Positions 1,774 through 42,277 of a DNA stretch of 42,277 nucleotides are shown here, in pieces. The DNA is from a virus, in the IMG/VR virus record IMGVR_UViG_3300034272_001526, positions 1 through 42,277 of that record, one strand, 5' to 3'. Numbering within the stretch: position 1 is the first letter of the stretch; each line of letters starts with the position of its first letter. Position numbers and translations under genes: made by a program. Below the pieces are notes generated by a model, which searched no databases, was not told where the DNA came from, and saw only the letters and a program-made list of their open reading frames with translations.

Positions 1774-2132
1774 GCACTGTCAATCGCATTTCCACGTGGG
1801 ACCGACGCACCGGATATGTGCTGCGCATCGCCGCCGGGAAACTGACGGACGCGATCCTCGGCCGCGCCCTCGTTGACGGGGATGCGTTCACGATGTCGGC
1901 TCAAGCGTTCACGGATGACGGCGCGGTGACGCCGACGGCGCTCGCGGGCGCGAGCGCGGTGTCGTTCGCCTGGTCAGCGACGGCGAACCAGTGGGCGGCT
2001 GAACTGCCCTACGTGGCGGGCAGCATGGACGCGCTGGCGACCGTGCGCGTCGTGGCGACGTTGACCGCGAACGGGACCACGCATGATCTGATGGACGCCA
2101 CGGTGACGTTCACCCGCGCGGACGGGCGGTAA
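1770..2132 (+). CDS. Hypothetical beta-rich phage structural protein (120 aa)
   Basis: ATGA overlaps the stop of the repeat-protein gene, so translation is probably coupled. The product looks like a compact beta-sandwich. A central pattern of SFAWSATANQWAAELPYV followed by ATVRVVATLTANGTTHDLMD resembles accessory Ig-like baseplate or fibre domains of phages that begin with polarity-defining strands. There is no signal peptide or membrane segment. The position suggests a minor virion or adaptor protein of the receptor-binding apparatus. No family is recognised with certainty. Confidence 0.6.
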   Translation: MSTVNRISTWDRRTGYVLRIAAGKLTDAILGRALVDGDAFTMSAQAFTDDGAVTPTALAGASAVSFAWSATANQWAAELPYVAGSMDALATVRVVATLTANGTTHDLMDATVTFTRADGR

Positions 2133-3247
2133 TGCCTCGCCAGCGTGCGTACCACATCTGGACACCGGAAGAGAAGCAGCGGCTGGAATCGATGTCGGCA
2201 GAAGGCTTCACCGCTGTCGAGATCGCCGACGCACTGGGGCTGCGGTACGCGCAGATCACCAACATGCGGAAGCAACTGCAGTGCGGGCCAATGATGCTGG
2301 CCCCCGGCTCGCGGGTTGTGGCAGAGTACCGCGAGCCGGATGGGCCACTCGTTGCCACGGTCCTTGCGCCAAACATCACCGAAGACGAGTCAACAGAAGA
2401 GTTTTTGGCGCGCTATCGCAAGCGGGCGGCGAAGTCCGTCGCGGTTGCGCGGGTGCAGCACTACGCCACGGTGAAGATCGCCAGCGACAAGCCGGTCGGA
2501 ATCGTCGTGCAGGGCGACCAGCACATCGACGGCACTGGGACGGACCTCGACTTTCTGGAACACACCGCGAAGTATGTCGGGCGCACGGATGGGCTCTACA
2601 CCATTGACATTGGCGATCTGCTGCAGAACAACATCGTCCACCGCGACAAGGACGTGCGCGCGGTGGCCGATCAGTTGCGGTTCGGTGACATCTACATCGA
2701 ATGGTTTCGCGGCAAGTGGCTCGGCAGCATCAGCGGGAACCACACCGATTGGACGAAAAGTGTCGCGGGGTTTGATCACGTCGCGGCATTCGCGAAGCGG
2801 CACCGCTTTCACTTTGTGCCCGATGAACTGCTCTGGAAAGTGCAGATCGTCAACCCGCACAACGCGGACGAGGTCACGGCTGAGTGGCTCATCGCAACGC
2901 GGCATCAGTTCCGGCGGCACAGCAACATGAACCCAGAGCACGCCTGCTACCGCTGGATGGAAGAGCGTGTCACGAAGTGGGGCGTGGTGCCAGACGTGCT
3001 CGCCATCGCGCACAACCACACCGCGTGCGTCGGGGTGCGCAACTTTGACAACCGCGACGTGTGGGCGGTGCGGCCAGGCTCTGCGCAGGTTGAGAGTGCC
3101 TACGCCCGTGCGAAGGGGTTCCAAGACTTCCGGCCGACCATGCCGACCATCGTCCTGCCGCCGACGCGTGACGAGCGGATCGTCTGCTTCTCGGACCCCG
3201 ACCAGGCGGTGCGGTTTATGCGCGGCTGGCGTGATGTGGCTGCCTGA
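2132..3247 (+). CDS. HTH domain fused to calcineurin-like metallophosphoesterase
   Basis: The product has 371 residues. Residues 8-50 (WTPEEKQRLESMSAEGFTAV onward) form a SANT/resolvase-like helix-turn-helix. A calcineurin-like phosphoesterase core follows from about residue 115: GDQH at 128-131, DIGD at 159-162, GNH at 202-204, a His at 258 and AHNH at 293-296, which together supply the usual two-metal ligands. Such domains cleave phosphodiesters, including nucleic acids (Mre11/SbcD group) or nucleotides. The start overlaps the previous stop (TAATG). Its place among tail-fibre genes rather than replication genes is odd. The substrate is unknown; the added DNA-binding domain suggests DNA. Confidence 0.85.
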   Translation: MPRQRAYHIWTPEEKQRLESMSAEGFTAVEIADALGLRYAQITNMRKQLQCGPMMLAPGSRVVAEYREPDGPLVATVLAPNITEDESTEEFLARYRKRAAKSVAVARVQHYATVKIASDKPVGIVVQGDQHIDGTGTDLDFLEHTAKYVGRTDGLYTIDIGDLLQNNIVHRDKDVRAVADQLRFGDIYIEWFRGKWLGSISGNHTDWTKSVAGFDHVAAFAKRHRFHFVPDELLWKVQIVNPHNADEVTAEWLIATRHQFRRHSNMNPEHACYRWMEERVTKWGVVPDVLAIAHNHTACVGVRNFDNRDVWAVRPGSAQVESAYARAKGFQDFRPTMPTIVLPPTRDERIVCFSDPDQAVRFMRGWRDVAA

Positions 3248-8065: not shown

Positions 8066-8704
8066 GTGGCACTTGAAAGATACGCCGTCCGCCCGGTGTC
8101 GTACCGACACGCGATGGAGGTGGTGGTACGCCATCACTACCTGCACCGCCGGTGCCCGTGCTCGGTTGCGTTCGGCCTGTTCTTGGGTGACGCACTAAAG
8201 GGCGTCGTGTGCTATGGCACGCCGAGCAGCGCCCCTCTTAGGAGTGGACTAGCCGGACCTGAGCACGCAATGAACGTGGTGGAACTGACGCGCCTCTGGG
8301 TCTGTGACAGCGTGCCGCGCAACGGTGAGAGCTTCCTGATCGGGCGCACGTTGAAGCACGCTGGCAAGGAGATCGTGGTGTCGTTCGCTGACGCCTCATT
8401 AGGGCACGTCGGCACGGTCTATCAGGCGTCTAACTTCTTGTATACCGGTCTCTCCGCGAAGCGGAGTAACTGGACGGTCGAGGGAATCGACTCGCACTGC
8501 CAGACGATTGCCGACAAGTACACCGCTGACGAGCTGCGCGCGAAGTTTGGGGAGCGGTTCACGCGCCACCCCCGCCCGCGAAAGCATCGGTATGTGTACC
8601 TCAACGCGCATGGCCGACGCCGCGCGGCGCTGTTGTCTGCGCTGCGGTATCCACTTGAACCATACCCGAAGGTGACAACGCAAATACAGGAGCGTGCCGC
8701 ATGA
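8066..8704 (+). CDS. Mom-like DNA adenine modification protein
   Basis: The 212-residue product matches the family of phage Mu Mom, the acyltransferase-fold (GNAT-like) enzyme that converts adenine in DNA to a carbamoylmethyl form and protects against restriction. Diagnostic segments are HHYLHRRCPCSVAFGLF (23-39), a GxxxYGTPSS turn, NVVELTRLWVCDSVPRNGES (70-89), VVSFADASLGHVGTVYQASN (104-123) and YTGLSAKRSNW. The GTG start at 8066 has an AAGGGG ribosome site about seven bases upstream. The gene opens the second forward block, divergent from a repressed-looking reverse unit. Function is inferred from family; its target motif is unknown. Confidence 0.8.
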   Translation: MALERYAVRPVSYRHAMEVVVRHHYLHRRCPCSVAFGLFLGDALKGVVCYGTPSSAPLRSGLAGPEHAMNVVELTRLWVCDSVPRNGESFLIGRTLKHAGKEIVVSFADASLGHVGTVYQASNFLYTGLSAKRSNWTVEGIDSHCQTIADKYTADELRAKFGERFTRHPRPRKHRYVYLNAHGRRRAALLSALRYPLEPYPKVTTQIQERAA

Positions 8705-9674: not shown

Positions 9675-10442
9675 ATGACCACCACAAGCCGCTGGGCCAC
9701 CAGCGGCATCACACGCCCCCCGAAGCTGCTGATCTACGGCACGCATGGAGTGGGCAAGACCACCACGGCGGCACAGTTCCCCGGCGCGATGGTTCTGCGC
9801 GCCGAGGACGGCGTTGCGGGGCTGAACGTGCCGGTGTCGCCGGTCGTCAGCACGTACACTGAAGCCGTCGGCTGTCTCAGCGACCTGTTCTCGATGCCGC
9901 CTGGCACGCTCGTCGTAGACTCCATCGATGCGCTCGAGTCGATGGTGTGGGCCGAGACGTGCAACCGGCTTGGCGTCGCCAGCATCGAAGCCCCCGGATA
10001 CGGCAAGGGTTACACCGAAGCCGACTTGGTCTGGCTGGAACTGCGGCGTGGCTTGACGCTGCTCAATGAGGCGGGCTGGCTCATCATCCTCATCGCCCAC
10101 GCGCAGATCGTGCAGTTTGATGACCCCGCGACCGAGTCGTACAGCCGTCACGTCATCAAGCTGCACAAGCGCGCCCGTGCGCTGTGGTCCGAGTGGGTGG
10201 ACGTGATCGGCTTTGCGCACTGGGAGAACACCGTCCAGTCGCGCAAGGGCGACGACAAGAAGGTCCGCGCCACCGGCACGGGCCGACGCGCCATCGCGCT
10301 GCAGGAGTCACCGGCCTACGACGCGAAAAACCGCTACGGGATGCCGCCGATCCTCCCGCTTGACGCCACGCATCTCCTGAATGCCCTGCACGCGGGTGGC
10401 TGTCCGCTGCCTGCACCCACTGCTTTCACCTCCGAGGTCTGA
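9675..10442 (+). CDS. RecA-like AAA ATPase, Sak4-type annealing protein
   Basis: This 255-residue AAA_24-type P-loop protein has Walker A at 22-30 (GTHGVGKTT), Walker B at about 79-84 (LVVDSID) and a sensor-like IILIAHAQI strand near residue 140. Phage proteins of this class (Sak4) form a shortened RecA core and help single-strand annealing recombination with the phage SSB. The gene beside it encodes a DUF669 probable SSB, the usual Sak4 pairing. It is preceded by its own strong promoter. The acidic and aromatic C-terminus ends two bases before the next ATG. Confidence 0.8.
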   Translation: MTTTSRWATSGITRPPKLLIYGTHGVGKTTTAAQFPGAMVLRAEDGVAGLNVPVSPVVSTYTEAVGCLSDLFSMPPGTLVVDSIDALESMVWAETCNRLGVASIEAPGYGKGYTEADLVWLELRRGLTLLNEAGWLIILIAHAQIVQFDDPATESYSRHVIKLHKRARALWSEWVDVIGFAHWENTVQSRKGDDKKVRATGTGRRAIALQESPAYDAKNRYGMPPILPLDATHLLNALHAGGCPLPAPTAFTSEV

Positions 10443-10444
10443 TC

Positions 10445-10933
10445 ATGTCGTTCTACACCGCTACCAACGCCGCCCCGCGCCCCGAGCGCGCCTCCGTCCT
10501 CCCGCAGGGCACCTACCGCGCCGTCATCATGCGCGCCGAAATGAAGCCGACCAAGCGGGGCGACGGCGAGTTTCTGGAACTGGAGTTCGTGGTGCTGGAA
10601 GGCGAGCACACGAACCGCAAGTTCTGGGATCGGCTCAACCTGAAGAACCCGAACGAAACTGCCGTGCAGATCGCGCGGGAAGCGATGGACGAGCTCTGCT
10701 TCGTGACTGGCAAGCTGTCGCTCACCAGCGCGCAAGAATTGGTCGGCTCGACCGTCGCGGTGCAGTTGAAGGTCAAGCAGAACAGCCAGACGAAGGAACC
10801 CGAGCAGGCCGTCGTCCGCTTCCTGAAGGACACGGGGCCAGGCACCGTGGCGGCTGCGCCGACGCGGCCCACGCCGACGCCTGTGGCATCGAACGCCGTC
10901 CCGGCATGGGCCCAGCCCCGCCCGGCCGCGTGA
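10445..10933 (+). CDS. ssb: DUF669 protein, probable single-stranded DNA-binding protein
   Basis: The 162-residue product has the DUF669 pattern: an N-terminal LPQGTYRAVIMRAEMKPTKR strand pair, a central GEFLELEFVVLEGEHTNRKF with FWDRLNLKNPNETAVQIARE, then a VGSTVAVQLKVKQN strand and a disordered Pro/Ala-rich tail (about 130-162). DUF669 members are OB-like phage SSB proteins that partner Sak4 ATPases and helicases. The neighbours on both sides fit this. The tail resembles the protein-interaction tip of SSBs but lacks a strongly acidic end. Confidence 0.75.
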   Translation: MSFYTATNAAPRPERASVLPQGTYRAVIMRAEMKPTKRGDGEFLELEFVVLEGEHTNRKFWDRLNLKNPNETAVQIAREAMDELCFVTGKLSLTSAQELVGSTVAVQLKVKQNSQTKEPEQAVVRFLKDTGPGTVAAAPTRPTPTPVASNAVPAWAQPRPAA

Positions 10934-12777
10934 TCTTGCGCGACTACCAGTTGGCAGCGGTGGATGCCGCTGCCAACTGGGCGACCGCCCGCCCATCAGA
11001 TCACGGCGTGATCGTGCTCCCGACCGGAGCCGGAAAAACTGCGGTGATGTCTGGCCTCGTGCAGCGGGTGCGCGAGGCCGATTCGTCTGCACGCCTGCTG
11101 ATCCTCGCACACCGCAAGGAACTGCTGCAGCAGAGCATCCAGACGGCGTGGCGCATGATGCCCGCATCCGATGTGGGCATCTACGCCGCGTCACTGCGGC
11201 GGAAGGATCGGAAGTCCCCGCTCACGGTGGCGAGCATCCAGAGCCTACTGCGCGATCCTTACGCCATCGGGGCGCAGGATGTCGTGCTGATCGATGAGTG
11301 CCACCTCGTGCCGCCCGACGCCGACACCGGCTTCCGCAAGACGCTGGCGGGGCTGCACGCGATGCGGCCCGACGTGCGCGTGATCGGCCTGACCGCGACG
11401 CCGTATCGGCTCGGCAGCGGGCTGCTGCACACGGGCGAGAACTCGCTGTTCAAGGGGATCATCTACGAGGTCGGCATCCCCGAGCTTCTGCAGCAGGGCT
11501 ACCTCTGCCCCGTGCGCCCGAAGGCCACGCACGCGCGGCTCTCGACCGCTGGTGTCGCGGTGCGTGGCGACTTTGTTCCGGCGCAACTCAGCGCCGCCGT
11601 GGACATCGACAGCACCACGCAAGCCATCGTCGCGGAGTGCGTGCAGAACTTTCAGGATCGTCACTGCTGGCTCGTCTTCGGCTGCAGCGTCGAGCACGCC
11701 GAGCATCTTGCCGCCGCATTTAACCAGCGCGGCATTCCGACGGAAGCGGTGCATGGCACCATGACGGATTCTGAGCGCGACATCGCACTCTCGAGATTCC
11801 GCAGCGGCGCGCTGCGCTGCGTCGTGACGTGCGAACTGCTCACCACGGGCTTCGACCATCCGGCCATCGATGCCATCGCGCTTGTGCGGCCCACGAAGTC
11901 GGCAGGGCTGTTCTACCAGATGTGCGGGCGGGGCTTTCGGCCGCACCCGAGCAAGATCGATTGCCTCGTGCTCGACTTTGCGGGGAACACGATGCGCCAC
12001 GGGCCGCTTGACACGATTTCCGAGCGCATCAAGGATCGCGCGCCTGGGGACGGTATGGGTGTCGCGCCTGCGAAGGAGTGCCCGAACTGCGAAGCCATCG
12101 TGCCCGCGAGTGCGCTGGTGTGCCCGCACTGCGAGCACCAGTTCCCCGCACCGAAGCCGAAGCTGGAGCGCGAGGCGAGCACCGCGCCGCTCTTGTCGTC
12201 ACAGGTCGCCGTGAAGATTCCCGAGTGGCATCCGGTGAACGGCGTGGTCGTGCATGAGACCTCCCCGCGTGATGTGACGAAGCGGCCGACGCTGCGCGTG
12301 GACTACCTGAGCGGCCCTCGCACCGTCGCGAGTGAGTGGGTGTGCTTCAGCCACCCGCAGGACGGCTACGCGTACAGCAAGGCGCGGCAGTGGTGGCGTG
12401 AGCGGTTCGGGGATCGAGACTGCCCCGTGAGTGCCTTTGATGCGGCGGTTGACATCGACAGCCTGCCAGAGTTCTACATCCTGCCCTCGGAGATCTGCGT
12501 GGCACAAGATGGGGAGTACCAGCGCGTCGCGGCGGTGCGCTGGCCCGGGGACCGCGCGCGCCGAATCGCGGAAGCGGCGTTTCAGGCAAGCAAGAACACG
12601 GCGCTGCCGAAGGCATGCTGGACGTGCGCGCATCTGGACGGCGACGGGCGCTGCACACTGGCTGCAATGGTGCCGCCGCCCGAGGTGCAAGCCGTGGGCT
12701 GCGAGATGTACGACGTCCAGCACGACGCTGAAGTCTTTGCGATCAATGCGGTCTACCATGATGAGGTGCCGTTCTGA
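10930..12777 (+). CDS. SF2 DNA helicase, RadD/UvsW-like, with zinc ribbon
   Basis: GTG 10930 is chosen because it overlaps the SSB stop, gives the conserved LRDYQLAAVD Q-motif region at once, and follows the GTGA habit of this genome; ATG 10906 is an alternative. The 615-residue protein has Walker A PTGAGKT (31-37), a DECH box (122-125), GLTATP (motif III region), helicase C-terminal motifs with TTGFDHPAIDAI and QMCGRGFRP, then a Cys4 zinc ribbon (CPNC and CPHC, about 384-402) and a second Cys cluster near the end (CWTC then CTL and CEMY). It resembles RadD (YejH), a repair and replication helicase. Confidence 0.85.
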   Translation: MILRDYQLAAVDAAANWATARPSDHGVIVLPTGAGKTAVMSGLVQRVREADSSARLLILAHRKELLQQSIQTAWRMMPASDVGIYAASLRRKDRKSPLTVASIQSLLRDPYAIGAQDVVLIDECHLVPPDADTGFRKTLAGLHAMRPDVRVIGLTATPYRLGSGLLHTGENSLFKGIIYEVGIPELLQQGYLCPVRPKATHARLSTAGVAVRGDFVPAQLSAAVDIDSTTQAIVAECVQNFQDRHCWLVFGCSVEHAEHLAAAFNQRGIPTEAVHGTMTDSERDIALSRFRSGALRCVVTCELLTTGFDHPAIDAIALVRPTKSAGLFYQMCGRGFRPHPSKIDCLVLDFAGNTMRHGPLDTISERIKDRAPGDGMGVAPAKECPNCEAIVPASALVCPHCEHQFPAPKPKLEREASTAPLLSSQVAVKIPEWHPVNGVVVHETSPRDVTKRPTLRVDYLSGPRTVASEWVCFSHPQDGYAYSKARQWWRERFGDRDCPVSAFDAAVDIDSLPEFYILPSEICVAQDGEYQRVAAVRWPGDRARRIAEAAFQASKNTALPKACWTCAHLDGDGRCTLAAMVPPPEVQAVGCEMYDVQHDAEVFAINAVYHDEVPF

Positions 12778-12947
12778 TGACACGCGAGGAGTTCTTCGCC
12801 GCTGGCGGCACGGTGGACGTGATCCATCGCAACCCACCTGAATCGCGCCGCTTGGCGACTGTGACAGTGAACGGGCGCACCGTGCGAGGACGCGGGGCAT
12901 CCATAGACGAAGCCATCGCACGCGCGGTGGCGCAGTTGCGCGCATGA
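12777..12947 (+). CDS. Small hypothetical protein (56 aa)
   Basis: TGATG joins it to the helicase gene, and ATGA joins its end to the primase gene. The product starts MTREEFFAAGGTVDVIHRNP, has a strand pair with VTVNGRTVRGRGASIDEAI and a final helix. The strand-strand-helix arrangement resembles small double-stranded-RNA- or DNA-binding folds; no family is assigned. Its place between helicase and primase suggests a replication accessory role. Confidence 0.6.
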   Translation: MTREEFFAAGGTVDVIHRNPPESRRLATVTVNGRTVRGRGASIDEAIARAVAQLRA

Positions 12948-15154
12948 CCGCCCTCCTCGCCGCCGCCCAAAGCTATGCCCAACGCGGCTGGCCCGTCTTC
13001 CCGCTCGTGTGGTGGGACGGGGACGCGTGTAGCTGCGGCGATCCTGCGTGCCCCTCGCCAGGCAAGCACCCGTACTTCGTGCTCGCTCCGCGTGGGTTCT
13101 ACAACGCCACCACCGATGCGGACACCATCAGCCAGTGGTGGGCGCGTGAGCCGCGCTGCAACATCGGCATCCGCACTGGCGCTGAGTCTGGGCTGCTCGT
13201 CATCGACGTGGACACCCGCGCGACCAAGGATGGCGAGCAGACGCTGCGCGAGATCACGCGGGTGGTGGGGCCGCTGCCGGACACGGTCGAGGCGATCACC
13301 GGCAGCAAGTCGCGGCACCTCTTGTTTCAGTACCCCGGCCACAAGGTCGCCGCCAAGCTGGGCGAGGGCATCGATGTCAAGAGCGACGGCGGCTACATCG
13401 TTGGCGCGCCATCGAACCACATGTCGGGCTTTGACTACGTGTGGAACGCCGACCAGCATCCCGACGACGTGCCGGTCGCCGCGCTGCCTGCGGCATGGCT
13501 CACGCGGTTGCAGCGATCCGAATCGGTCGCGCTGGTCCCAGCGACGGCGGGGGAGGTCTTTTCCCCCTACCTTATCAAGAAGATCCGCTCGGCAACCGGC
13601 GTGCTCTCGCCGGACGATTACGACACCTATGTCGGCGTCGGCATGGCGCTGCACCACGAGAGCCGGGGCCACGATATGGCGTTCGGGCTGTGGTGGGAAT
13701 GGTGCTCGAGCTGGGTGGCCGTCAACCCGCAGACGAAGAAGGCCAGCCTCACCGAGGTGCGCCGCCATTGGTCGGGCTTCGGCAAGACGACGGGCGATCC
13801 ACGCACGTTTGGCTGGCTCTGGCGGTCGGCCGAGGCACAGGGCTGGATCGCGCCCGAGGCTCCGGTGCCCGTGGTGCGCCCCAGCGCCCCGCTGGCGACC
13901 TTCGACGCGCGGTGGGCGACGGACGCTCCCGGCATGCTCGGAACGGTCGTCCGGTGGTCACTGGCGACCGCGCCGGTCCCTGTGCCGGTGTATAGCCTCG
14001 CGGCGGCGCTCGCCCTCGGTTCCGTCGCGAGCGGGCGGCAGTACCAGATGCGCGGGACGTTCAGCCCGCTATTCCTGCTCGTGTCGGGCCGCACGGCGTC
14101 GGGCAAGGATCACGTCAATTCCACGATCAAGGCGGTGCTGAGAGCGGTGGACCGCTCCCTGCTGGGGCCAGGGGAGTTCGCGTCCGAGTCAGCGGTGCTC
14201 TCCACGCTGGCACACCAGCCGCAGATTGTGTCGGTTATGGACGAGTTCGGTCAGCAGTTGAGCGGGGCCAAGGCGCAGGGCATGGCGCACAAGGCTGGGG
14301 CGCTGCGGCAGATGATGGTGTCGTGGAGCTCGGCCTCGTCCTCGATGGAGGGCAAGGCGCTGTCGTCGCTTGGCATGAAGCCCAGCGACGTGCGCCCGCC
14401 TGTGTCGATTGAGCGGCCGTGCCTCGTCCTCGTCGGGCTCACCACGCCTGTCCGGCTGCACAAGGGGCTGGAGAGTGATCACATCGGCGACGGCTTCCTG
14501 AACCGCTGGCTGCTGCTCGAGCATGACGAACCCCGCGAGACGGCTGATGCCAAGACGCTGCCGCCGGTCCCCGAGGGGATCACCGAGTGGATGCGCCGCG
14601 TGGCGGCTCCGCGTGGCGATCTCCCCCGCACGGCTGGCACCGCACCGGCGGCGCTCGAGGTGCCGGTGGACGACGACGCGCTGGCGCTGCTGCGCACCCT
14701 CGCACATGACGCCACGGCCCGCGACAACGCCCTCGACGCCGCGCTGCAGGGGCTCTGGGGGCGGGCTGGTGAGCAAGTGGCGCGCGTGGCGCTGATCGCG
14801 GCGCTGGCCGATGCCGAGACGCCCGTGCTGGCGCGGGTGAGCGTGGCGCATGTGCAGTGGGCCCACCGCGTGGTCTGGTGGAGCGTACATCGGCTGGTCG
14901 CAATGGCGCAGGACCGGCTGGGCGACTCCCCGTTTGAACTGATGCGGTCGAAGGCCTTGGCGGCGGTGCAGGCGTCGGGCACCACGGGGCTTTCGCGGCG
15001 GGAGCTCATGCGAGGCGCGATGCGGTCGCAACCGGCGCACAACGTGGATGCCGTCATGCTGGCCCTGCAAGAAGCCGGGCAGGTGCGTGTGGGCACCAGC
15101 GGGGCGAAGAATCGGGCACACTACTGGGCGGGGGACGACGAGGAGGGGGAGTAG
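12944..15154 (+). CDS. Bifunctional primase-polymerase with DUF3987-like ATPase domain
   Basis: The 736-residue replication protein starts with a PrimPol domain (about 5-185): Cys motif around SCGDPACPSPGKHP (30-43), NIGIRTG (73-79), catalytic VIDVD (86-90), RHLLF near 124 and DGGYIVGAPSNH (148-159). A PriCT-type helical domain follows (about 205-300; YDTYVGVGMALH, TFGWLWRSAEAQGW). The ATPase part carries a P-loop GRTASGKD (382-389). A winged-helix end (SRRELMRGAMRSQ) completes it. It probably primes and unwinds phage DNA. It is the last gene of the forward replication block and precedes a strong terminator. Confidence 0.85.
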   Translation: MTALLAAAQSYAQRGWPVFPLVWWDGDACSCGDPACPSPGKHPYFVLAPRGFYNATTDADTISQWWAREPRCNIGIRTGAESGLLVIDVDTRATKDGEQTLREITRVVGPLPDTVEAITGSKSRHLLFQYPGHKVAAKLGEGIDVKSDGGYIVGAPSNHMSGFDYVWNADQHPDDVPVAALPAAWLTRLQRSESVALVPATAGEVFSPYLIKKIRSATGVLSPDDYDTYVGVGMALHHESRGHDMAFGLWWEWCSSWVAVNPQTKKASLTEVRRHWSGFGKTTGDPRTFGWLWRSAEAQGWIAPEAPVPVVRPSAPLATFDARWATDAPGMLGTVVRWSLATAPVPVPVYSLAAALALGSVASGRQYQMRGTFSPLFLLVSGRTASGKDHVNSTIKAVLRAVDRSLLGPGEFASESAVLSTLAHQPQIVSVMDEFGQQLSGAKAQGMAHKAGALRQMMVSWSSASSSMEGKALSSLGMKPSDVRPPVSIERPCLVLVGLTTPVRLHKGLESDHIGDGFLNRWLLLEHDEPRETADAKTLPPVPEGITEWMRRVAAPRGDLPRTAGTAPAALEVPVDDDALALLRTLAHDATARDNALDAALQGLWGRAGEQVARVALIAALADAETPVLARVSVAHVQWAHRVVWWSVHRLVAMAQDRLGDSPFELMRSKALAAVQASGTTGLSRRELMRGAMRSQPAHNVDAVMLALQEAGQVRVGTSGAKNRAHYWAGDDEEGE

Positions 15155-16258: not shown

Positions 16259-16270
16259 TTTCCATGGAAA
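16259..16270. repeat. 12-bp perfect palindrome beside the tandem array
   Basis: TTTCCATGGAAA is fully self-complementary and lies two bases before the 16-bp repeat array, within a stretch that is AT-rich for this genome. It may be a protein-binding site. Confidence 0.5.
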
Positions 16271-16272
16271 TC

Positions 16273-16400
16273 AGAAGCTTCTAACATTAGACGGCTCTCA
16301 CATTAGAAGCTTCTAACATTAGACGGCTCTCACATTAGACGGCTCTAATGTGAGATGGCTCTAACATTAGACGCCTCTAATGTAAGACGGCTTTCACCAC
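16273..16400. repeat. Array of eight 16-bp tandem repeats with alternating palindromes
   Basis: Eight consecutive 16-bp units fill this 128-base stretch. Units 1 and 3 are AGAAGCTTCTAACATT (with a 10-bp palindrome), units 2 and 4 AGACGGCTCTCACATT, and units 5-8 are variants of AGACGGCTCTAACATT in which the last five bases are ACATT or its complement AATGT. This inversion makes perfect stem-loops, such as CACATTAGA with TCTAATGTG around CGGC (16331-16352). No gene overlaps the array. There are no unique spacers, so it is not a CRISPR. Confidence 0.85.
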
Positions 16401-16655
16401 GCGTGGTGCGTGGTCGCCTGATGCGTGCTAGTGCCGACACCACGCGCGCGCGTGCTGGTGACTGGTGCGTGCGTACTAGTGGCTAGTGGCTAGTGCGTGG
16501 TGGCTAGTGGCTAGTCGGTTGCGTTGTGCATGGTTCGTTGCGTTGTGCGTGGTGCGGAAACGACCACGCGCGACACGGTCTATCGACCGGCCGCGCGTGG
16601 TGCGTGTTCCATCATTCCCCCGGTGTGGTGTAGTCTGTCGTGCGTGGTGTCTGCA
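16401..16655. other. Gene-free low-complexity region with a mini-ORF
   Basis: The stretch is dominated by GTG/TGG words on the forward strand, including repeated GGCTAGT (16480-16515) and GTTGCGTTGTGC (16519-16550). Read on the reverse strand it is CA-rich like the leaders of the reverse genes. A reverse start region identical to that of the 16703 gene (GGGGGA before ATGATG, 16610-16615) opens an 11-codon frame that stops at 16580-16582. This could be a leader peptide or the remains of a lost gene. Nothing longer is credible. Confidence 0.5.
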
Positions 16656-16690
16656 CCACAAAAGGGCCCCATACTGGCGGCCGTTTGTGG
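16656..16690 (-). terminator. Intercistronic hairpin, copy 1
   Basis: CCACAAA pairs with TTTGTGG, with further GC pairing inside, just after the stop of the reverse gene at 16703. Sequence and position match the hairpin at 17046-17079. It is likely a terminator or processing site. Confidence 0.55.
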
Positions 16691-16702: not shown

Positions 16703-16999
16703 TTAGATGTCGTCGTCGTCGTCCGTCGGCAATTCTATTTCGATCACTTCACAGAACCCGTCGTCGCCCCATACACCTTGCGCGCGGTTCTCGGTTTCAA
16801 TGTCGTCAGCGACAGTTTGCGCGTCTTGCTCAGTTTCAAAGGTGCCGAGATGCGTAAACGCCCCGCATGCTTCTCCCCCGTTATCCCAGTTTATCACATA
16901 CCGCCTAGTCGTTGGCGCGTGCCGCGCGTCGAATTCGGCCGCGCGTGCATAGTGTGCGTCCAATTCGTTTGCCGCCTGCAGCTTTTCGTCGTCCGTCAT
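16703..16999 (-). CDS. Acidic hypothetical protein (98 aa)
   Basis: Two ATGs follow a GGGGGA ribosome site directly (17000-17002 and 16997-16999); the second has the better spacing. The product is MTDDEKLQAANELDAHYARA, a RYVINWDNGGEACGAFTHLG strand pair, a helix (FETEQDAQTVADDIETENRA) and an acidic end of five Asp. Its strand-helix-strand order and acidic charge recall small DNA-mimic or inhibitor proteins, but no family is recognised. It is flanked on both sides by copies of the same hairpin and leader. Confidence 0.65.
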   Translation of the reverse strand: MTDDEKLQAANELDAHYARAAEFDARHAPTTRRYVINWDNGGEACGAFTHLGTFETEQDAQTVADDIETENRAQGVWGDDGFCEVIEIELPTDDDDDI

Positions 17000-17002
17000 C
17001 AT

Positions 17003-17045
17003 TCCCCCGGTGTGGTGTGTGGTGTGGTGTGCGTGGTCCCCGCAA
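17003..17045 (-). promoter_or_regulatory. CA-rich leader of the 16703 gene
   Basis: Read on the reverse strand, repeated CACCACA words run up to a GGGGGA ribosome site. The leader should be unstructured. It follows hairpin copy 2 and recurs in shortened form at 16616-16650. Confidence 0.5.
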
Positions 17046-17079
17046 CACAAAATAGCCCCGTACTGGCGGCCGTTTTGTG
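17046..17079 (-). terminator. Intercistronic hairpin, copy 2
   Basis: CACAAAA pairs with TTTTGTG and, after one mismatch, GGCC with GGCT. The G-U pair that forms in the reverse-strand RNA would be a mismatch in the forward RNA, so the reverse transcript is the likely carrier. The hairpin lies 15 bases after the stop of the 17095 gene. Confidence 0.55.
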
Positions 17080-17094: not shown

Positions 17095-17886
17095 TCAGTC
17101 CAGCACGAACCCGGATGTATCACGTTGCGCCTTGCGACCTTTCGCCAACAGACCGACCACGACGCCGCGTGGGTCCAGAAACCGTAGATCGGTCGCGAGT
17201 CCGTCGATCACCTGGCGACCGTTCCACGTCTGTGGCAACGTCTTTCGAAAGACGACCGCTACGTTGTTCCCCGCGTCGCTCTCCGCCCGCGCGTGCGTGT
17301 CGTTATGCTCGGCACGCGAAAACGTGAGCGTGTAGTTCGTCGGCAGATTGCGGCGGTTCGGCAGCTTGGTGTAATCGTAAAACGTGATGCCGGGAAAGGC
17401 TGACATAATGTTGGGGAACGTCACACCATCACGGACGCACGGTTCGTTTTCCCACCGGATATCACTAGTGGCATTCAGGCGGAAGCAGGGAATCAGGCCA
17501 CGACGCGCGGCCGTGCGGATTGCGCGTTCCACGTCCCGGACCAGTGCCAGCATAAACGTGTCGCGGTCGTTGAAAAACCACAACGTGCGGCGCTTGCGAC
17601 ACTCACGCACCGCGTTCGTCGTCTCGCCTTTCTTGATGATGGCGCTGTGGCCTGAGTGTTCCCCGAGACAGACGGCCGTGCAACCAGCCGAGGCCATTGG
17701 ACAGACTTGGAAACCGGATGACCGAGCCGGTGCAAAGTGCAGGAGAAAGGTTTGGTAGCCTGCAGCCTCGCCGAGCAACGCCTTTGGGTTTGACGTTGTG
17801 AGGAGGGAACCGAGGATCCCGTTCTCCCGCGCGGCTCGAGTGGCGCGTGCGGCGGCGCGTGCGGCGGTGTGTGTGGTGCGTGGCAT
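17095..17886 (-). CDS. DUF7227 / gp88-like phage protein of unknown function
   Basis: The 263-residue product matches a protein family frequent in phages and related to mycobacteriophage gp88-type proteins. Conserved blocks are SNPKALLGEAAGYQTFLLHF (32-51), a Cys-rich CPMASAGCTAVCLG (62-75), FFNDRDTFMLALVRDVERAI (104-123), RLNATSDIRWE (about 137), FYDYTKLPNR, AVVFRKTLPQTW and a C-terminal DLRFLDPRGVVVGLLAKGRK ending in SGFVLD. The three close Cys suggest metal binding. The function is unknown; many phages keep it near modification or counter-defence genes. It starts with no Shine-Dalgarno after a long CA repeat leader. Confidence 0.75.
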   Translation of the reverse strand: MPRTTHTAARAAARATRAARENGILGSLLTTSNPKALLGEAAGYQTFLLHFAPARSSGFQVCPMASAGCTAVCLGEHSGHSAIIKKGETTNAVRECRKRRTLWFFNDRDTFMLALVRDVERAIRTAARRGLIPCFRLNATSDIRWENEPCVRDGVTFPNIMSAFPGITFYDYTKLPNRRNLPTNYTLTFSRAEHNDTHARAESDAGNNVAVVFRKTLPQTWNGRQVIDGLATDLRFLDPRGVVVGLLAKGRKAQRDTSGFVLD

Positions 17887-17931
17887 GGTGTGGTGTGGTG
17901 TGTGGTGTGGTGTGTGGTGTGGTGTGGTGGG
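17887..17931 (-). promoter_or_regulatory. CA-repeat leader of the DUF7227 gene
   Basis: The whole 45-base gap between two reverse genes is CACCA/CACACCA repeats when read on the reverse strand, running right up to the ATG. There is no Shine-Dalgarno. An unstructured CA-rich leader could help ribosome binding through S1-like contacts. Confidence 0.6.
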
Positions 17932-18237: not shown

Positions 18238-18258
18238 TGTGGATAACTTTGTGGATAA
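18238..18258 (-). promoter_or_regulatory. Two consensus DnaA boxes
   Basis: TGTGGATAA occurs at 18238-18246 and 18250-18258, 12 bases apart in the same direction. Its complement TTATCCACA is the ideal DnaA box. They mark one end of the proposed origin and suggest use of host DnaA. Confidence 0.65.
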
Positions 18259-18280
18259 CTCGGACTAGGACGCTCTACGC

Positions 18281-18493
18281 TATTGCAAAATGCAATACCT
18301 GTGGGTGTAGTAGTGTTGCAAAATGCAAGACAACGCATCGTCCCCGTACTTTTCCACATTTCTGGCGCTCGAGTGTCCGGAAACCGGACGGCAAAACTTG
18401 CCGAGTGTCGCAGCAGCGCCACAACACAATGTTGCGCACGCGCCACACAATCGCCCGGCAAGTCTTGCCGGTTTTGTGCAAGTGGCCGCTTGC
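18281..18493. repeat. Series of short palindromes with 3-base centres
   Basis: Six perfect inverted repeats with arms of 5-7 bases all have exactly three central bases: 18281-18297 (TATTGCA arms), 18316-18328 (TTGCA), 18375-18389 (GTCCGG), 18389-18403 (CGGCAA), 18422-18434 (CAACA) and 18455-18471 (CCGGCAA). A near-palindrome, GCAAGTGGCCGCTTGC, closes the series at about 18478-18493. TTGC/GCAA is common to most, as if one dimeric protein reads variants of a site. Confidence 0.7.
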
Positions 18494-18739
18494 ATTTTGG
18501 TTTACATAACATCCCTTATCGGCTCGGCATGTTTGCGAGCTCGGTCGGTCGGTCGGTCAATTTTGCCGCGTGGTCGATGCCTGGCGCGCGTCTGCGAAAG
18601 CGTGCCAGCGTGCGCAGCCGCTCGAGCTGGCACACTTGGCCCCCCGCCCCGCCCCCCCAAGCCGAGGAGACAGATGGGCCGGGCCCCCTCCGCCCCCGAA
18701 CTTTGCCGGACGGGACGTCGGCCCTAATGGTCGAGCTTG

Positions 18740-18799
18740 CTCTACTGGGCAGCACTGGACTCCACCGGGCAGCACGCGGCTCTACTGGGCAGCACGCGG
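18740..18799. repeat. Three 20-bp tandem iterons
   Basis: Three head-to-tail 20-bp units (18740-18759, 18760-18779, 18780-18799) share CTCTACTGGGCAGCAC; the middle unit differs by two C/T changes and the first ends TGGA instead of GCGG. A period of about two helical turns would place bound proteins on one face of the DNA. Confidence 0.8.
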
Positions 18800-18855
18800 T
18801 GTGTCACGCAGGGGGGCGTCACGCGGGGTGGTGCACGAGCCGTAAACAGATGCTC

Positions 18856-19190
18856 CAACTGTCACATCTTCGTGTGACAGTTGGTGACAGTTGAATGGCT
18901 GAGTCCGGCAAACTGTCACAACTGTCACCCAACTGTCACACCCATCGTGTGACAGTTGAATGGATGAGCTCGGCTGCTCGTAAGTCTATGATCTATATAG
19001 AGATAAAAAAAAATTTGGTTATCATATTATGAGAGAATCCCCCAACTGTCACACTGTCACAGGGGTAATACCCCCTAGATCATTTATTAGAAGGGACTCA
19101 CCGAAACAGTGGGCCTTATAGGACATGGCGGCCCCGGAGAGGGCTGGTTTCTGGGAACGCCAACTTTTCATGTGACAGTTGTGACAGTTG
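18856..19190. repeat. Array of CAACTGTCAC sites in both directions
   Basis: Forward copies start at 18856, 18919, 18930 and 19043, with near copies at 18910 and 19051; reverse copies (GTGACAGTTG) start at 18874, 18884, 18949, 19172 and 19181. Two pairs form perfect hairpins: 11-bp arms at 18856-18883 and 12-bp arms at 18930-18958, both followed by GAATGG(C/A)TGAG, so a block has been duplicated. Neighbouring copies are 9-11 bases apart, about one helical turn. They may be sites for an initiator or repressor. Confidence 0.8.
18981..19037. other. AT-rich block, possible DNA unwinding element
   Basis: This roughly 57-base stretch (with ATCTATATAGAGAT and a nine-A run) stands out in a GC-rich genome. 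It lies inside the CAACTGTCAC array, between its dense part and the late-gene side, as expected of an origin's melting region. Confidence 0.6.
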
Positions 19191-19232
19191 CCCTCGGCGG
19201 GGTCCAGTATTGCACGGGACGCGGGCACCGCG

Positions 19233-19246
19233 TAGCCTTCGGGCTA
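19233..19246 (+). promoter_or_regulatory. Small hairpin at the VRR-NUC start
   Basis: TAGCC and GGCTA enclose a stable TTCG tetraloop, and the stem runs into the A of ATG 19246. It may limit translation from this start or favour the upstream TTG. Confidence 0.4.
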
Positions 19247-19698
19247 TGCCCACTGCCACCACCACGCGCGCCCCCGCGCCCCAGCGCCCTCGCATCGCGG
19301 AGGACGTGATCCAGGCCGAGCTGGTGCGCTGGTGCCGGTCCCATGCGGACGCGCGGCTGCACCGCATTTTCCACATCCCGAACGGCGGGCAGCGCGATGG
19401 CCGCTCGGGTGGGCTGATGGTCGCCCTCGGCGTGCGGCGTGGCATTCCGGACCTGTTCCTGCCGCACATGACCACGCGGCAGGTGGCAGGCATGGCGGTG
19501 CCGGTCGGCGGGCTCTGGCTGGAGATGAAAGCGGCCGACGGCGTGACCAGCCCGCAGCAGAAGACGTGGCTGGCGTACTTCGACGCGGCGGGCTACGCCA
19601 CCGCCGTCGCGTACAGCCTCGAGGAGGCCCAGGCGGCGCTGTGCGGGTATCTGGGCATCCCCACGCGCGGGAACGCGGGGGCCGACACGGGTGACTGA
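19246..19698 (+). CDS. VRR-NUC domain nuclease
   Basis: The 150-residue protein has the VRR-NUC (PD-(D/E)xK-type) pattern: EDVIQAELVRWCRSH (about 19-33), HIPNGGQRDGRSGGLMVALG (about 43-62), the catalytic GVRRGIPDLFLP, then LWLEMKAADGVTSPQQKTWL (the ExK element) and a YATAVAYSLEEA end. Stand-alone phage VRR-NUC proteins are structure-specific nucleases and often lie next to the terminase, helping resolve branched DNA before packaging. ATG 19246 is chosen, but a TTG at 19210 has the better ribosome site; a TAGCC-TTCG-GGCTA hairpin just before the ATG could hide it. Confidence 0.85.
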   Translation: MPTATTTRAPAPQRPRIAEDVIQAELVRWCRSHADARLHRIFHIPNGGQRDGRSGGLMVALGVRRGIPDLFLPHMTTRQVAGMAVPVGGLWLEMKAADGVTSPQQKTWLAYFDAAGYATAVAYSLEEAQAALCGYLGIPTRGNAGADTGD

Positions 19699-20278
19699 GC
19701 CGCCCCTGTCCCCTTTCCTCTCCCGCGTGGAGGAGGCCCGACCCGTCGTGGTGGTCGCCCCCCCGCCGGTGGAGCCCCTGCAGGAGCCGCTGGAGGCGCT
19801 GACGGCCTTGCCGGTAGGGGATGGGCGCAAGGCGCGCGGACGGCCCCGCTCCGACGTGGTGCGGGCGGTCGGCACCTCCCAGCGCGGGGAGATGGTGCGG
19901 AGTGCGGTCACGGCGGCGAAGGGGGTCGAGGCCATGAAGGAGGCGAACCGACTCAAGCGGGAAGCGGCGGCAGCGGTCGGGCAGTCCTTGACGCGCAACG
20001 TCCCGAAGCGGACCCCGCTGGCCGTCAAGGAAGCGTGCCTGCTGGCCTTCGACGAGCGCATCCCGATGCTGATGGAGATCGCTGACACCGCGCCGCTCAT
20101 GGCCGACCGGATCCGCGCCATCGACCTCTTGGCGCGCTACGGCGGGCTGGCGACTGTCGAGCTCACCCTCGACCGGCCCGTGGCGATTGCGATCATGGGG
20201 CTGGACATGGCTCCACCGCTCGCCCCGATGGGGGATGGGCGCGAGATCGGCGTGGTCGAAGCGCCGTTGGCGTCGTGA
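19691..20278 (+). CDS. terS: Putative terminase small subunit
   Basis: GTG 19691 overlaps the VRR-NUC stop. The 195-residue product has a disordered Pro-rich N-terminus, an AT-hook-like RKARGRPRSD (about 46-55) and a helical C-terminal half with PMLMEIADTAPLMADRIRAI and DLLARYGGLATVEL, the pattern of terminase small subunits that bind the packaging site and feed the large subunit. The GTGA junction with the large terminase gene supports this. The match is by pattern and position, not by a full-length family resemblance. Confidence 0.65.
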   Translation: MTEPPLSPFLSRVEEARPVVVVAPPPVEPLQEPLEALTALPVGDGRKARGRPRSDVVRAVGTSQRGEMVRSAVTAAKGVEAMKEANRLKREAAAAVGQSLTRNVPKRTPLAVKEACLLAFDERIPMLMEIADTAPLMADRIRAIDLLARYGGLATVELTLDRPVAIAIMGLDMAPPLAPMGDGREIGVVEAPLAS

Positions 20279-22518
20279 CCCGCGTGCTCAAGCAGCGCGA
20301 GGCGCTGCCGACCACCCTCGACATCCGGCTCTCGCCCCAGCAGCGCGCGGTCCTCGCCAAGCAACGGCAGCACCGCTTCCTCGTGCTGATCGCGGGCCGT
20401 CGCTGGGGCAAGACCCGCTTCGCGATTGCGGTGCTCGCGATTGCCGCCGCCGAGAAGCCGAAGAGTCGGAACTGGTACATCGCGCCAACGCGCGAGATGG
20501 CGAAAGACATCTGCTGGGACGTGCTCCTCGAGGTGATGCGTCCGCTCATCGTCGCGGTGAACGCCACCGAGCTCACGGTGACGCTCGCCAACGGCTCGAC
20601 GATCACCCTCAAATCCGCCGACGAGCCGGATCGCTTGCGAGGCCGCGCGCTCGACCTGGTGGTGCTGGACGAATTCGCGCAGATCGCGCGCGAGACGTGG
20701 GACGCGGTGATCCGACCGGCGCTCGCGACCACGCAGGGGAAGTGCGTCTTCATCGGCACGCCGGACGGGCGGGGGTGGGCGTATGAACTCTTCCGCGCGG
20801 CGCAGCAAGACACGACGGGGTACTGGTGCGCGATTGCCCAGACGACCGCGCAGGGCGGCTTCGTGCCGCAGGAAGAACTGGAAGAGGCGAAAGCCTCGAT
20901 GGATCCGCGCATCTACCGGCAAGAGTTCGAGGCCACGTTTGAGTCGGCGCTCGGGCGCGTGCATGACGCGTTCCTGTGGGCCCCGCACCCAGCGGGCAAT
21001 GTGAGCGCGGACGTGTCAGACGATCCGCTGCTGCCGCTGTTGGTGGGCATGGACTTCAACGTGCATCCCATGTCGGTGTCGCTCGCGGTGAAGCGCGGCA
21101 AGCAGTTGCATGTGTTCGACGCGTGGCAAGTGCCGACCTCGAACACGGAAGAAATCTGCACGATGCTGGTGGACCGCTACCCGAACCGGCTGGTGCGTGT
21201 GTACCCCGACCCGTCGGGCAACGCGCGCAAGTCGAGCGCGCCGGTCGGCCAGACAGACTTCACCATCTTGCGCCGCCACGGCTTCAACGTCCTCGCGCCG
21301 ATGAAAGCGCCAGCGGTCGCGGATCGCATCAACGCGGTGAACGCGCTGCTGTGCAACGCGAAGGGGGAGCGCAACCTGCTGATCCACCCCCGCGCGGTGA
21401 CGCTGCTCAAGTCGTTGGACGGCTTGGCGTACAAGCTGGGCACGAGCCAGCCGGAAAAGGCCGGGGGCTTCGACCACGCGTGCTTTGATGGCGACACGCT
21501 GGTGGAGACACCCGCTGGGGTAGTGCCTATCGCCTCGCTGCCGCCCACGGGCGAGATACGCGGCCCGACCGGCGAGTGGGTGTCGTATGTCGGCGCAGGC
21601 ATCACGAAGCGCAACGCGGAAGTGGTCGAGGTGACGTTCGCGTCAGGCTATCGCGTGATCTGCACGCCTGACCACCAGTGGCTGACGACACAGGGGTGGA
21701 TGCGCGCGGTGGACATGGATGCGACCACCGATTACATTGAGGTATGCGATATACAATCCTCAGTGACACGAAGCAGCAGTTCGACGGCCTCACCTACTAT
21801 CGGTGCGGCACCTACTTCCAGCGCGCTGGCGTGCGGCTGCATCGCGCTGTGTACCTCGCGGTGCATGGGGCAATTCCCGATGGCGCACACGTTCATCACG
21901 TCGATGGCGACCCAGCCAACAACGCACCGGACAATCTCGTCGCCATCCACCCCGCAGCGCACGGCGCGCTTCACGGCAGCGAGCCTGCACGACAAGACAA
22001 CGCCCGACGAGCACTGGGACACGCACGCGACGCCGCTGCCGCATGGCATCGCAGCGATGCCGGTCGCGCATGGCACCGCGAGCACCATGCCCAGCACAGG
22101 GATGCACTCTATCGCACCCTTCGCGCCGTCTGCACCCACTGTGGCGGCGAATACGACACCACCCGCAGAGTCAAGACTGCATTCTGTTCACGCAACTGCA
22201 ACGCAGCCGCACGCCGCGCATCCGGCGTGGACAATACGACCAGAACTTGCACGCATTGCGGCGCAGCGTTCACCTGCAACCGCTACTTCGCCACACAGCA
22301 CTGCAGCAAGCGGTGTAGCGCGTTCACACGGCAGCATCGTCTCCGTTCGTCCGGTTAGCGCGCGGGATGTGTACGACGTGTGTGTGCCCGATGTCGGTGC
22401 GTTCGCACTGGCGTCGGGCATTGTTGTGTCCAACTGTGACGCGCTGGGCTACCTCGTCTGGACCGCGTGCAATCCGTTGCGCGACTATCGCATCGACCTC
22501 GCCTCATTCTCCCGCTGA
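20275..22518 (+). CDS. terL: Terminase large subunit interrupted by an intein
   Basis: The 747-residue precursor starts at GTG 20275 (GTGA overlap). The ATPase has Walker A GRRWGKT (41-47), Walker B VVLDE (129-133) and the GTP coupling motif (161-163). The RNase H-like nuclease has GMDFN (Asp 260) and an Asp at 312 (YPDPSGN). The third nuclease motif is split: GGFDHA (397-402), then a 318-residue intein (403-720), then CDALGYLVW (721 onward). Excision would give a normal 429-residue terminase with an unbroken DHACDALGY motif. The enzyme cuts and packages phage DNA. A different gene lies in another frame across the intein. Confidence 0.95.
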   Translation: MTRVLKQREALPTTLDIRLSPQQRAVLAKQRQHRFLVLIAGRRWGKTRFAIAVLAIAAAEKPKSRNWYIAPTREMAKDICWDVLLEVMRPLIVAVNATELTVTLANGSTITLKSADEPDRLRGRALDLVVLDEFAQIARETWDAVIRPALATTQGKCVFIGTPDGRGWAYELFRAAQQDTTGYWCAIAQTTAQGGFVPQEELEEAKASMDPRIYRQEFEATFESALGRVHDAFLWAPHPAGNVSADVSDDPLLPLLVGMDFNVHPMSVSLAVKRGKQLHVFDAWQVPTSNTEEICTMLVDRYPNRLVRVYPDPSGNARKSSAPVGQTDFTILRRHGFNVLAPMKAPAVADRINAVNALLCNAKGERNLLIHPRAVTLLKSLDGLAYKLGTSQPEKAGGFDHACFDGDTLVETPAGVVPIASLPPTGEIRGPTGEWVSYVGAGITKRNAEVVEVTFASGYRVICTPDHQWLTTQGWMRAVDMDATTDYIEVCDIQSSVTRSSSSTASPTIGAAPTSSALACGCIALCTSRCMGQFPMAHTFITSMATQPTTHRTISSPSTPQRTARFTAASLHDKTTPDEHWDTHATPLPHGIAAMPVAHGTASTMPSTGMHSIAPFAPSAPTVAANTTPPAESRLHSVHATATQPHAAHPAWTIRPELARIAAQRSPATATSPHSTAASGVARSHGSIVSVRPVSARDVYDVCVPDVGAFALASGIVVSNCDALGYLVWTACNPLRDYRIDLASFSR
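21481..22434 (+). other. Intein (mini-intein splicing domain) inside terL
   Basis: The element starts with Cys1 in block A (CFDGDTLVETPAGVVPIASL) and has block B with T62xxH65 (ICTPDHQWLTTQGW). At the end, block F/G reads DVYDVCVPDVGAFALASGI, then VVSN, and is followed by Cys+1. These are the residues for Hint-type protein splicing, though the usual penultimate His is Ser here. Between residue about 90 and 290 the terminase frame is Ser/Thr/Pro/Ala/His-rich filler with no endonuclease motif. The HNH endonuclease occupies exactly this stretch but in the -1 frame. Confidence 0.93.
21744..22358 (+). CDS. HNH homing endonuclease nested out of frame in the intein
   Basis: The 204-residue protein is encoded -1 relative to terL. 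An in-frame TGA (21738-21740) lies one codon before its ATG, and TAG closes it at 22356-22358. The HNH core is LHRAVYLAVHGAIPDGAHV (32-50), HHVDGDPANNAPDNLVAIHP (51-70) and a third His at 73. A charged helical linker follows, then two zinc knuckles: CTHC with CSRNC (130-152) and CTHC with CSKRC (169-191). It would cut intein-free terL genes to spread the element. The GAGG before the ATG is only one base away, so initiation is probably weak or uses another signal. Confidence 0.9.
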   Translation: MRYTILSDTKQQFDGLTYYRCGTYFQRAGVRLHRAVYLAVHGAIPDGAHVHHVDGDPANNAPDNLVAIHPAAHGALHGSEPARQDNARRALGHARDAAAAWHRSDAGRAWHREHHAQHRDALYRTLRAVCTHCGGEYDTTRRVKTAFCSRNCNAAARRASGVDNTTRTCTHCGAAFTCNRYFATQHCSKRCSAFTRQHRLRSSG

Positions 22519-41890: not shown

Positions 41891-41928
41891 GCGACCGCCG
41901 TCCACTCACCCTCCGCCTGAAACCATAA
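41887..41928 (+). CDS. Tiny bridging ORF (13 aa)
   Basis: ATGA overlaps the previous stop and TAATG overlaps the fibre start. The peptide is MSDRRPLTLRLKP. It most likely passes ribosomes to the fibre gene, which has no other ribosome site of note. Confidence 0.35.
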   Translation: MSDRRPLTLRLKP

Positions 41929-42277
41929 TGGCACGTCTGTGGAAGGATGCGGCCGCGAGCACGCTCGCCAGCAGCATCACGACGAGCACCACGTCGCTCA
42001 CGCTGGCGACGGGCGAGGGGGTTCGATTCCCTGCGCCGACGGGCCTCGACTTCTTCATCTTGACGCTCGAAGAGGTGGACGGGAGCAACGTCGTCCTCGG
42101 GCGCGAACAGGTGATGTGTACCGCGCGCGTCGGTGATGTGCTGACCGTCACGCGAGCGCAGGAGGACACGGTCGCCCGCGCGGCGCCAGCGGGCACCCGC
42201 GCCGAGTTGCGTATCACGGCGGCCGCGATGGCGGCGCTCGGTCTGGGGCTGGATGTCTCCAGCACGGCGCTGGCAAG
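41928..42277 (+). CDS. Tail fibre protein, N-terminal part (3' truncated by window edge)
   Basis: The frame runs off the window after 116 full codons. The product starts MARLWKDAAASTLASSITTS and has LTLATGEGVRFPAPTGLDFF, then EQVMCTARVGDVLTVTRAQE, then AELRITAAAMAAL, the standard N-terminal domain by which many phage fibres attach to the tail. It probably continues into the open frame at 2-439: the last two bases plus base 1 make one Ser codon, and the frames match with no stop between. Confidence 0.8.
   Translation, partial: MARLWKDAAASTLASSITTSTTSLTLATGEGVRFPAPTGLDFFILTLEEVDGSNVVLGREQVMCTARVGDVLTVTRAQEDTVARAAPAGTRAELRITAAAMAALGLGLDVSSTALA

Follow-up and report, generated by a model that had tools for sequence, protein, structure and literature searches.

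The window analysed here comprises an entire virus record (42,277 bases, 66% GC), and its main gene-free gap (18238-19190) probably contains the replication origin of the phage. The origin would lie at 18855-19190, where eleven CTGTCAC sites in both orientations surround an AT-rich block. It would belong to the self-loading primase-helicase initiator type and be opened by the PrimPol-DUF3987 protein that the phage encodes. This reading is based on motif counts, structure models and comparison with other replicons: the same layout, and sometimes the same word, adjoins a replication-initiating enzyme in unrelated phages and plasmids. An earlier note on this DNA had proposed a composite origin occupying the gap. 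The comparisons favored an iteron-type origin, of which the working part is probably the array with its AT-rich block and not the whole composite.

Organization of the intergenic region

The gap is flanked by divergent genes (Table 1): a GP88-family gene on the left, and on the right a unit starting at 19210 that comprises the VRR-NUC gene, a 195-aa ORF in the small-terminase (TerS) position, and the genes for the large terminase (TerL) and the portal. The rightward replication genes code for an AAA_24 protein (9675-10442), a ResIII-type helicase (10381-12777) and the PrimPol-DUF3987 protein. The gap had been described as gene-free DNA between divergent units, which agreed with our results: ORFs of up to 203 aa are present in it, and those tested gave no credible family match. 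Comparison of the 1.1-kb region with phage records revealed no nucleotide similarity. GC skew had been suggested as a check, with an inflection elsewhere counting against an origin in the gap. Cumulative skew rose near-steadily, with no inflection at the array, and it is therefore uninformative, neither for nor against. A 262-codon open frame spans the ends of the record (41928-42277 plus 1-439, with its start at 41928 and the join at residue 116), and no end repeats were found in the record. Because this frame runs across the join, it suggests, without proving it, that the record represents the full circular map. Another contig (L009/L038; IMGVR 3300044614_001435) differed from the window only by a single 3-base gap; it starts at 18919, within the CTGTCAC array, probably owing to an assembly break at the repeats.

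Table 1. Position of the proposed origin, the proposed initiator gene and neighboring features in the window.
Feature	Position	Strand	Description
Proposed initiator gene	12944-15154	+	PrimPol (AEP), PriCT-2, predicted DUF3987/MCM-like AAA+ module, predicted C-terminal winged helix
Hairpin cluster	16262-16400	.	16-bp repeats (ATTAGACGGCTCTCAC type) that form strong hairpins; 1.1 kb beyond the 3' end of the PrimPol gene
GP88-family gene	17095-17886	-	Borders the gap on the left
Two perfect DnaA boxes, TTATCCACA	18238-18246, 18250-18258	-	Start-to-start 12 bp
Two TTGCA-AAA-TGCAA hyphenated palindromes	18283-18328	.	Operator-like
One-mismatch DnaA box, TTTTCCACA	18350-18358	+	
Two GGCAA-N3-TTGCC palindromes	18390-18471	.	
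Three 17-nt repeats (GCTCTACTGGGCAGCAC)	18739-18795	+	20-bp spacing; two identical, one 82%
Iteron set A	18855-18958	both	Seven AACTGTCAC: +18857, -18874, -18884, +18911, +18920, +18931, -18949; tandem neighbors 9-11 bp apart
AT-rich block	18981-19030	.	82% AT; candidate DNA-unwinding element between the iteron sets
Iteron set B, first pair	19044-19060	+	AACTGTCAC at 19044, CACTGTCAC at 19052
Iteron set B, second pair	19172-19189	-	AACTGTCAC at 19172 and 19181
VRR-NUC nuclease gene	19210-19698	+	First gene of the rightward unit
One-mismatch DnaA box	19367-19375		

The eleven CTGTCAC sites that had been noted are far above expectation, since 1000 shuffles of the stretch gave a mean of 0.2 sites and a maximum of 3. 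The longer word CAACTGTCAC occurs in nine exact copies, all of them within 18856-19190 and none elsewhere in the 42 kb; AACTGTCAC occurs in ten exact copies in the array, and TGTCAC in 12, one of them at 18802. No other mixed-orientation 7-mer cluster in the genome was as strong as the array in an unbiased k-mer scan (11 sites versus a shuffle maximum of 6). Neighboring tandem sites are spaced by 8-11 bp, approximately one helical turn. The AT-rich block, also noted earlier, corresponds to the AT-richest 50 bases, with seven sites on its left and four on its right.

Since the terminase genes begin about 1 kb to the right of the array, we considered that it might serve in packaging, as a pac/cos site to which the small terminase binds. 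Its location upstream of the VRR-NUC gene, the ORF in TerS position and TerL would fit such a role, and the array of Vibrio phage 13VT501A likewise lies between PrimPol and the terminase operon. However, a small plasmid and integrative elements with no adjoining terminase have the same word and layout next to helicase genes, and an AT-rich block is not expected at a pac/cos site, so that we give packaging very little chance.

The series of palindromes reported earlier was confirmed as four hyphenated palindromes of two types, both unique to the gap in this genome: TTGCA-N3-TGCAA at 18283 and 18316, and GGCAA-N3-TTGCC at 18390 and 18457. The second of the GGCAA type (18455-18471) doubles as a terminator-like stem followed by TTTT. 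Judging from their sequence, the palindromes look like ordinary operators, and this is one of the observations that would favor the array itself being an operator, bound by a phage transcription regulator of the divergent units. Others are the divergent intergenic position of the array, a promoter-like match (19052-19024) that overlaps a GTGACA site, and a weak HTH match in the protein encoded at 2132-3247. Nevertheless, eleven monomeric sites in irregular orientation, spread over 330 bp around an AT-rich block, would be atypical of an operator, and in other elements the array recurs after helicase genes; an operator as the function of the array is accordingly highly improbable. Autoregulation by the initiator could coexist with an origin role of the array. 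The gap also contains what had been described as three 20-bp iterons: the three repeats and their 20-bp spacing were verified, but the copies are 17 nt long and only two of them are identical. Neither these repeats nor the GCAA palindromes were found to be shared with the other replicons checked.

The two DnaA boxes, previously described as ideal, are indeed exact. Exact boxes appeared with a mean of 0.02 in whole-window shuffles, and a close pair in 0 of 200. Such a perfect adjacent pair, very unlikely by chance, might mean that initiation depends mainly on host DnaA, with the iterons in an auxiliary role, and a perfect DnaA box is also present in the middle of the array of locus L207, a relative described below. 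But 600 bp separate the boxes from the array, and over 700 bp separate them from the AT-rich block. None of the other CTGTCAC arrays tested has an exact box nearby, and among the 15 other replicons checked L207 alone showed one within 1 kb of its array. A DnaA-dependent origin is thus very unlikely. Because of their distance from the AT-rich block, and because they are not a shared feature, the boxes may at most be an accessory element of the origin proposed at the array.

The PrimPol-DUF3987 protein as candidate initiator

It had been stated that the phage encodes a PrimPol and no obvious initiator. This was not borne out, since the PrimPol protein continues into a predicted MCM-like AAA+ module and a C-terminal winged helix, which makes it an obvious initiator candidate. 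The protein gave family matches to Prim-Pol, PriCT-2 and DUF3987. In the AlphaFold model of residues 318-736, an AAA+-type core (mean pLDDT 76) is followed by a C-terminal winged helix with the order helix-helix-helix-strand-strand, and the same winged helix was obtained when the last 97 residues were modelled alone. Foldseek searches of the PDB with the 318-736 model returned MCM helicases as the best matches (E 1e-5) and PriRep1 with dsDNA as a lower, weaker one, and the last 97 residues matched winged-helix proteins, weakly by E-value (best 1.8e-3); all these matches are structural, with modest TM-scores (about 0.4-0.6). The models point to a AAA+ helicase core with a predicted C-terminal dsDNA-binding domain, and to a resemblance with the known iteron-binding initiators SCCmec Cch2, SaPI Rep and P4 alpha. 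Neither a Rep_3 domain nor a lambda-O (Phage_rep_O) domain was found.

By analogy with Cch2, the C-terminal winged helix of the PrimPol-DUF3987 protein would bind the CTGTCAC iterons on either side of the AT-rich block. The MCM-like AAA+ module would then assemble at the iterons as hexamers, melt the AT-rich block and unwind the DNA, and the PrimPol domain would prime synthesis on the exposed strands.

Comparison with known replication systems

SCCmec Cch2 uses its C-terminal domain to bind iterons located just 3' of its own gene, and unwinding by Cch2 requires these iterons; the origins of SaPI Rep lie just 3' of rep; and SCCmec Cch and Cch2 are distant homologues of the SaPI Rep helicases, with an unwinding polarity that has been likened to that of MCM (PMC7581432). 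The phage shares with these systems the multiple short iterons and a AAA+ helicase with a C-terminal dsDNA-binding domain, predicted in this case. It differs from them in having its primase as a fused PrimPol domain and a helicase that matches DUF3987, and in its array, which has mixed orientations, is built of the CAACTGTCAC word and lies 3.7 kb from the initiator gene. P4 alpha combines primase, helicase and winged-helix iteron binding in one protein (PMC4234260), an arrangement predicted here as well, although P4 has a bacterial-type (Toprim) primase and the phage an archaeo-eukaryotic PrimPol. Rep_3-type plasmids resemble the gap in that a single non-coding stretch holds iterons, DnaA boxes and an AT-rich region, but the phage genome lacks a Rep_3 initiator and its DnaA boxes are far from the AT-rich block. 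The lambda-type origin, with its O protein and iterons inside the O gene, differs in that no Phage_rep_O protein was found in the phage.

Taken from sequence and models, these comparisons supported SaPI, SCC or P4-type initiator-helicase origins as the closest model, and not the iteron-plus-DnaA plasmids favored in the earlier note, given the lack of Rep_3 and the rarity of exact DnaA boxes near the other arrays. In common with that kind of origin, the window showed a cluster of sites above chance, an AT-rich region between iteron sets and, by prediction, the architecture of the initiator. An origin directly downstream of the initiator gene was found in several relatives and not in the window, where array and gene are non-adjacent. 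Because of this distance, we propose that the array works like the SaPI/SCC kind and do not class it as a SaPI or SCC origin.

ORF904 of pRN1 also unites an AEP primase, a helicase and a C-terminal winged helix in a single protein, as predicted for the phage protein, and pRN1 requires a stem-loop downstream of the AEP-helicase gene, its proposed origin (PMC4234260). The pRN1 origin is a stem-loop without iterons, whereas the phage has iterons and a separate hairpin cluster (16262-16400), which could itself be the origin of a pRN1-type PrimPol replicon, with the CTGTCAC array as a regulatory or partition element. The 16-bp repeats of this cluster fold far better than shuffles (z = -7.7), and they are nearer to the PrimPol gene than the array is. 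Against this, no similar element was found in phage records, the eleven-site array is the stronger mixed-orientation cluster of the same genome, and the relatives carry iteron arrays with AT-rich blocks beside PrimPol. We consider a hairpin origin unlikely. The existence of this cluster, the 3.7 kb between array and initiator gene, and the absence of a clear array in seven INPHARED relatives (see below) are among the points that weigh against an origin at the CTGTCAC array.

Iteron arrays in relatives of the PrimPol

Loci with relatives of the PrimPol were retrieved using an alignment as query (22 fetched), a single-sequence query giving none. An unbiased scan with a shuffle control, in which no motif was named, was applied to 27 loci besides the window: most of these 22, eight INPHARED phages and L066. 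In seven of the 27, whose PrimPol is distantly related to that of the phage, a mixed-orientation array exceeding every shuffle adjoined the PrimPol gene (within about 350 bp). Five were located at the 3' side of the gene: CTGTCAC in L066 (267 bp), CATAATAG in L207 (43 bp), AATTATG in L217 (97 bp), ACGGCGT with GTGAC in L219 (6 bp), and TTGTGTTG in L221 (at the stop codon). In L208, TGTCAAT sites lie 144 bp 5' of the gene, and in Vibrio phage 13VT501A (L199) the array, of CATTTTTC, is on the start side of PrimPol. In addition, L203 has an array 2.2 kb downstream of PrimPol, L218 a weaker one (5 copies versus a shuffle maximum of 4), and L211 a run of CGTCAC sites within the 3' end of the gene that fell below the threshold of the scan. 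TTGTGTT is a further word among the arrays of the relatives.

No array above shuffles was detected in seven INPHARED relatives (C7, H40/1, H188, Serratianator, CASP1, L3 and RSU-F4K5). A search for the same array in related phages had been suggested as a check; it gave equivalent arrays in the seven loci mentioned and no clear one in these seven phages. Many members of the group, but not all, have an iteron array beside the PrimPol gene, and its word drifts. The idea that every DUF3987 PrimPol phage carries TGTCAC was rejected, since such a cluster is missing from the seven INPHARED relatives and the word differs in others.

CTGTCAC arrays in unrelated replicons

Eleven viral stretches contained the 18-mer AACTGTCACAACTGTCAC, and searches of genomes, phages and plasmids brought up related patterns. 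As these elements were found through the motif itself, their number is a count of examples and the association with replication genes is by example, not an unbiased rate. Multi-copy arrays near a recognizable replication gene usually follow that gene. The CTGTCAC array comes directly after a D5-type gene in L035, L036 and L042, after a DUF3987 gene with one ORF between in L037, and after an NrS-1-like PrimPol with D5 domains in L152. In the Geobacillus plasmid pSJEF4-2-2 (L191), 17 TGTCAC sites in 0.5 kb flank ATATATAT stretches and directly follow a DUF927 gene with a Cch helix-turn-helix domain, which recalls SCCmec Cch both in the initiator and in the position of the array. The eight annotated genes of L191 code for CHC2 zinc-finger proteins, this DUF927-Cch protein and hypothetical proteins. 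A replicon-weighted consensus over nine elements gave AACTGTCAC followed mostly by A. No known replication gene was found near the motif at L034, L135 and a set of Bacteroidales chromosomal repeats. In Bacteroidales-type chromosomal loci (L102, L123, L125, L151, L161 and L175), AACTGTCAC forms short tandem arrays accompanied, at about 100-170 bp, by an inverted partner, and no replication gene is nearby.

As control, the reversed 18-mer matched 4 contigs, versus 11 for the 18-mer; this control is not clean because one of its four matches, L224, is a TGTCA-type array with an AT-rich block. In L224, the iteron-like array of TGTCAACAC (1011-1267) surrounds this block, and the neighboring proteins gave no clear replication match. 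The inverted pair CAACTGTCAC-N-GTGACAGTTG was discarded as an array marker, since its matches were mostly an unrelated hairpin in front of a small gene, in contigs of probable cyanophages; in L044-L059, several of them probable cyanophages, the CAACTGTCAC hairpin precedes a small secreted-protein-like gene and is unrelated to the arrays. Some genome-wide matches to triple patterns were ordinary tandem and coding repeats, and were set aside after inspection.

Iterons normally diverge along with their initiators, so that a motif common across phyla would be unusual. It is possible, but doubtful, that one iteron core, (CA)ACTGTCAC built around TGTCA, is common across phyla to origins with differing primase-helicase initiators (PrimPol-DUF3987, NrS-1-like PrimPol-D5, Toprim/CHC2-D5 and DUF927-Cch), either through a conserved winged-helix specificity or because the word, with its GTG/CAC, also serves as a primase start signal. 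In the latter case, one motif would mark both helicase loading and priming. If the motif is indeed common, specificity and priming would be directly testable with short oligonucleotides. No report of AACTGTCAC iterons, or of an iteron core common to unrelated initiators, was found in the open-access literature.

The kind of system described here is already known; its description in PrimPol-DUF3987 phages appears to be new, as does the one iteron core common to unrelated initiators. Origins of PrimPol-helicase phages and mobile elements have rarely been mapped, and the layout of mixed-orientation iterons around an AT-rich block, beside a PrimPol or SF3/DUF3987/DUF927 gene, could be used for predicting origins in metagenomic phages. 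DUF3987 would in turn gain a role as a probable initiator helicase.

Other features of the genome

A Mom-like DNA modification protein (PHROG 1384) is encoded at 8066-8704, and the phage DNA may therefore be modified. The TerL gene (20275-22518) contains an apparent intein, the frame reading ...GGFDHA/CFDGDTLVETPAG... and ...FALASGIVVSN/CDALG..., with a sub-threshold Pfam intein match. Finally, GTGTGGTGTGGTG-rich repeats occupy gaps to the left of the array (16610-16686, 16997-17075 and 17892-17930), in 64-nt copies that are 80% identical.
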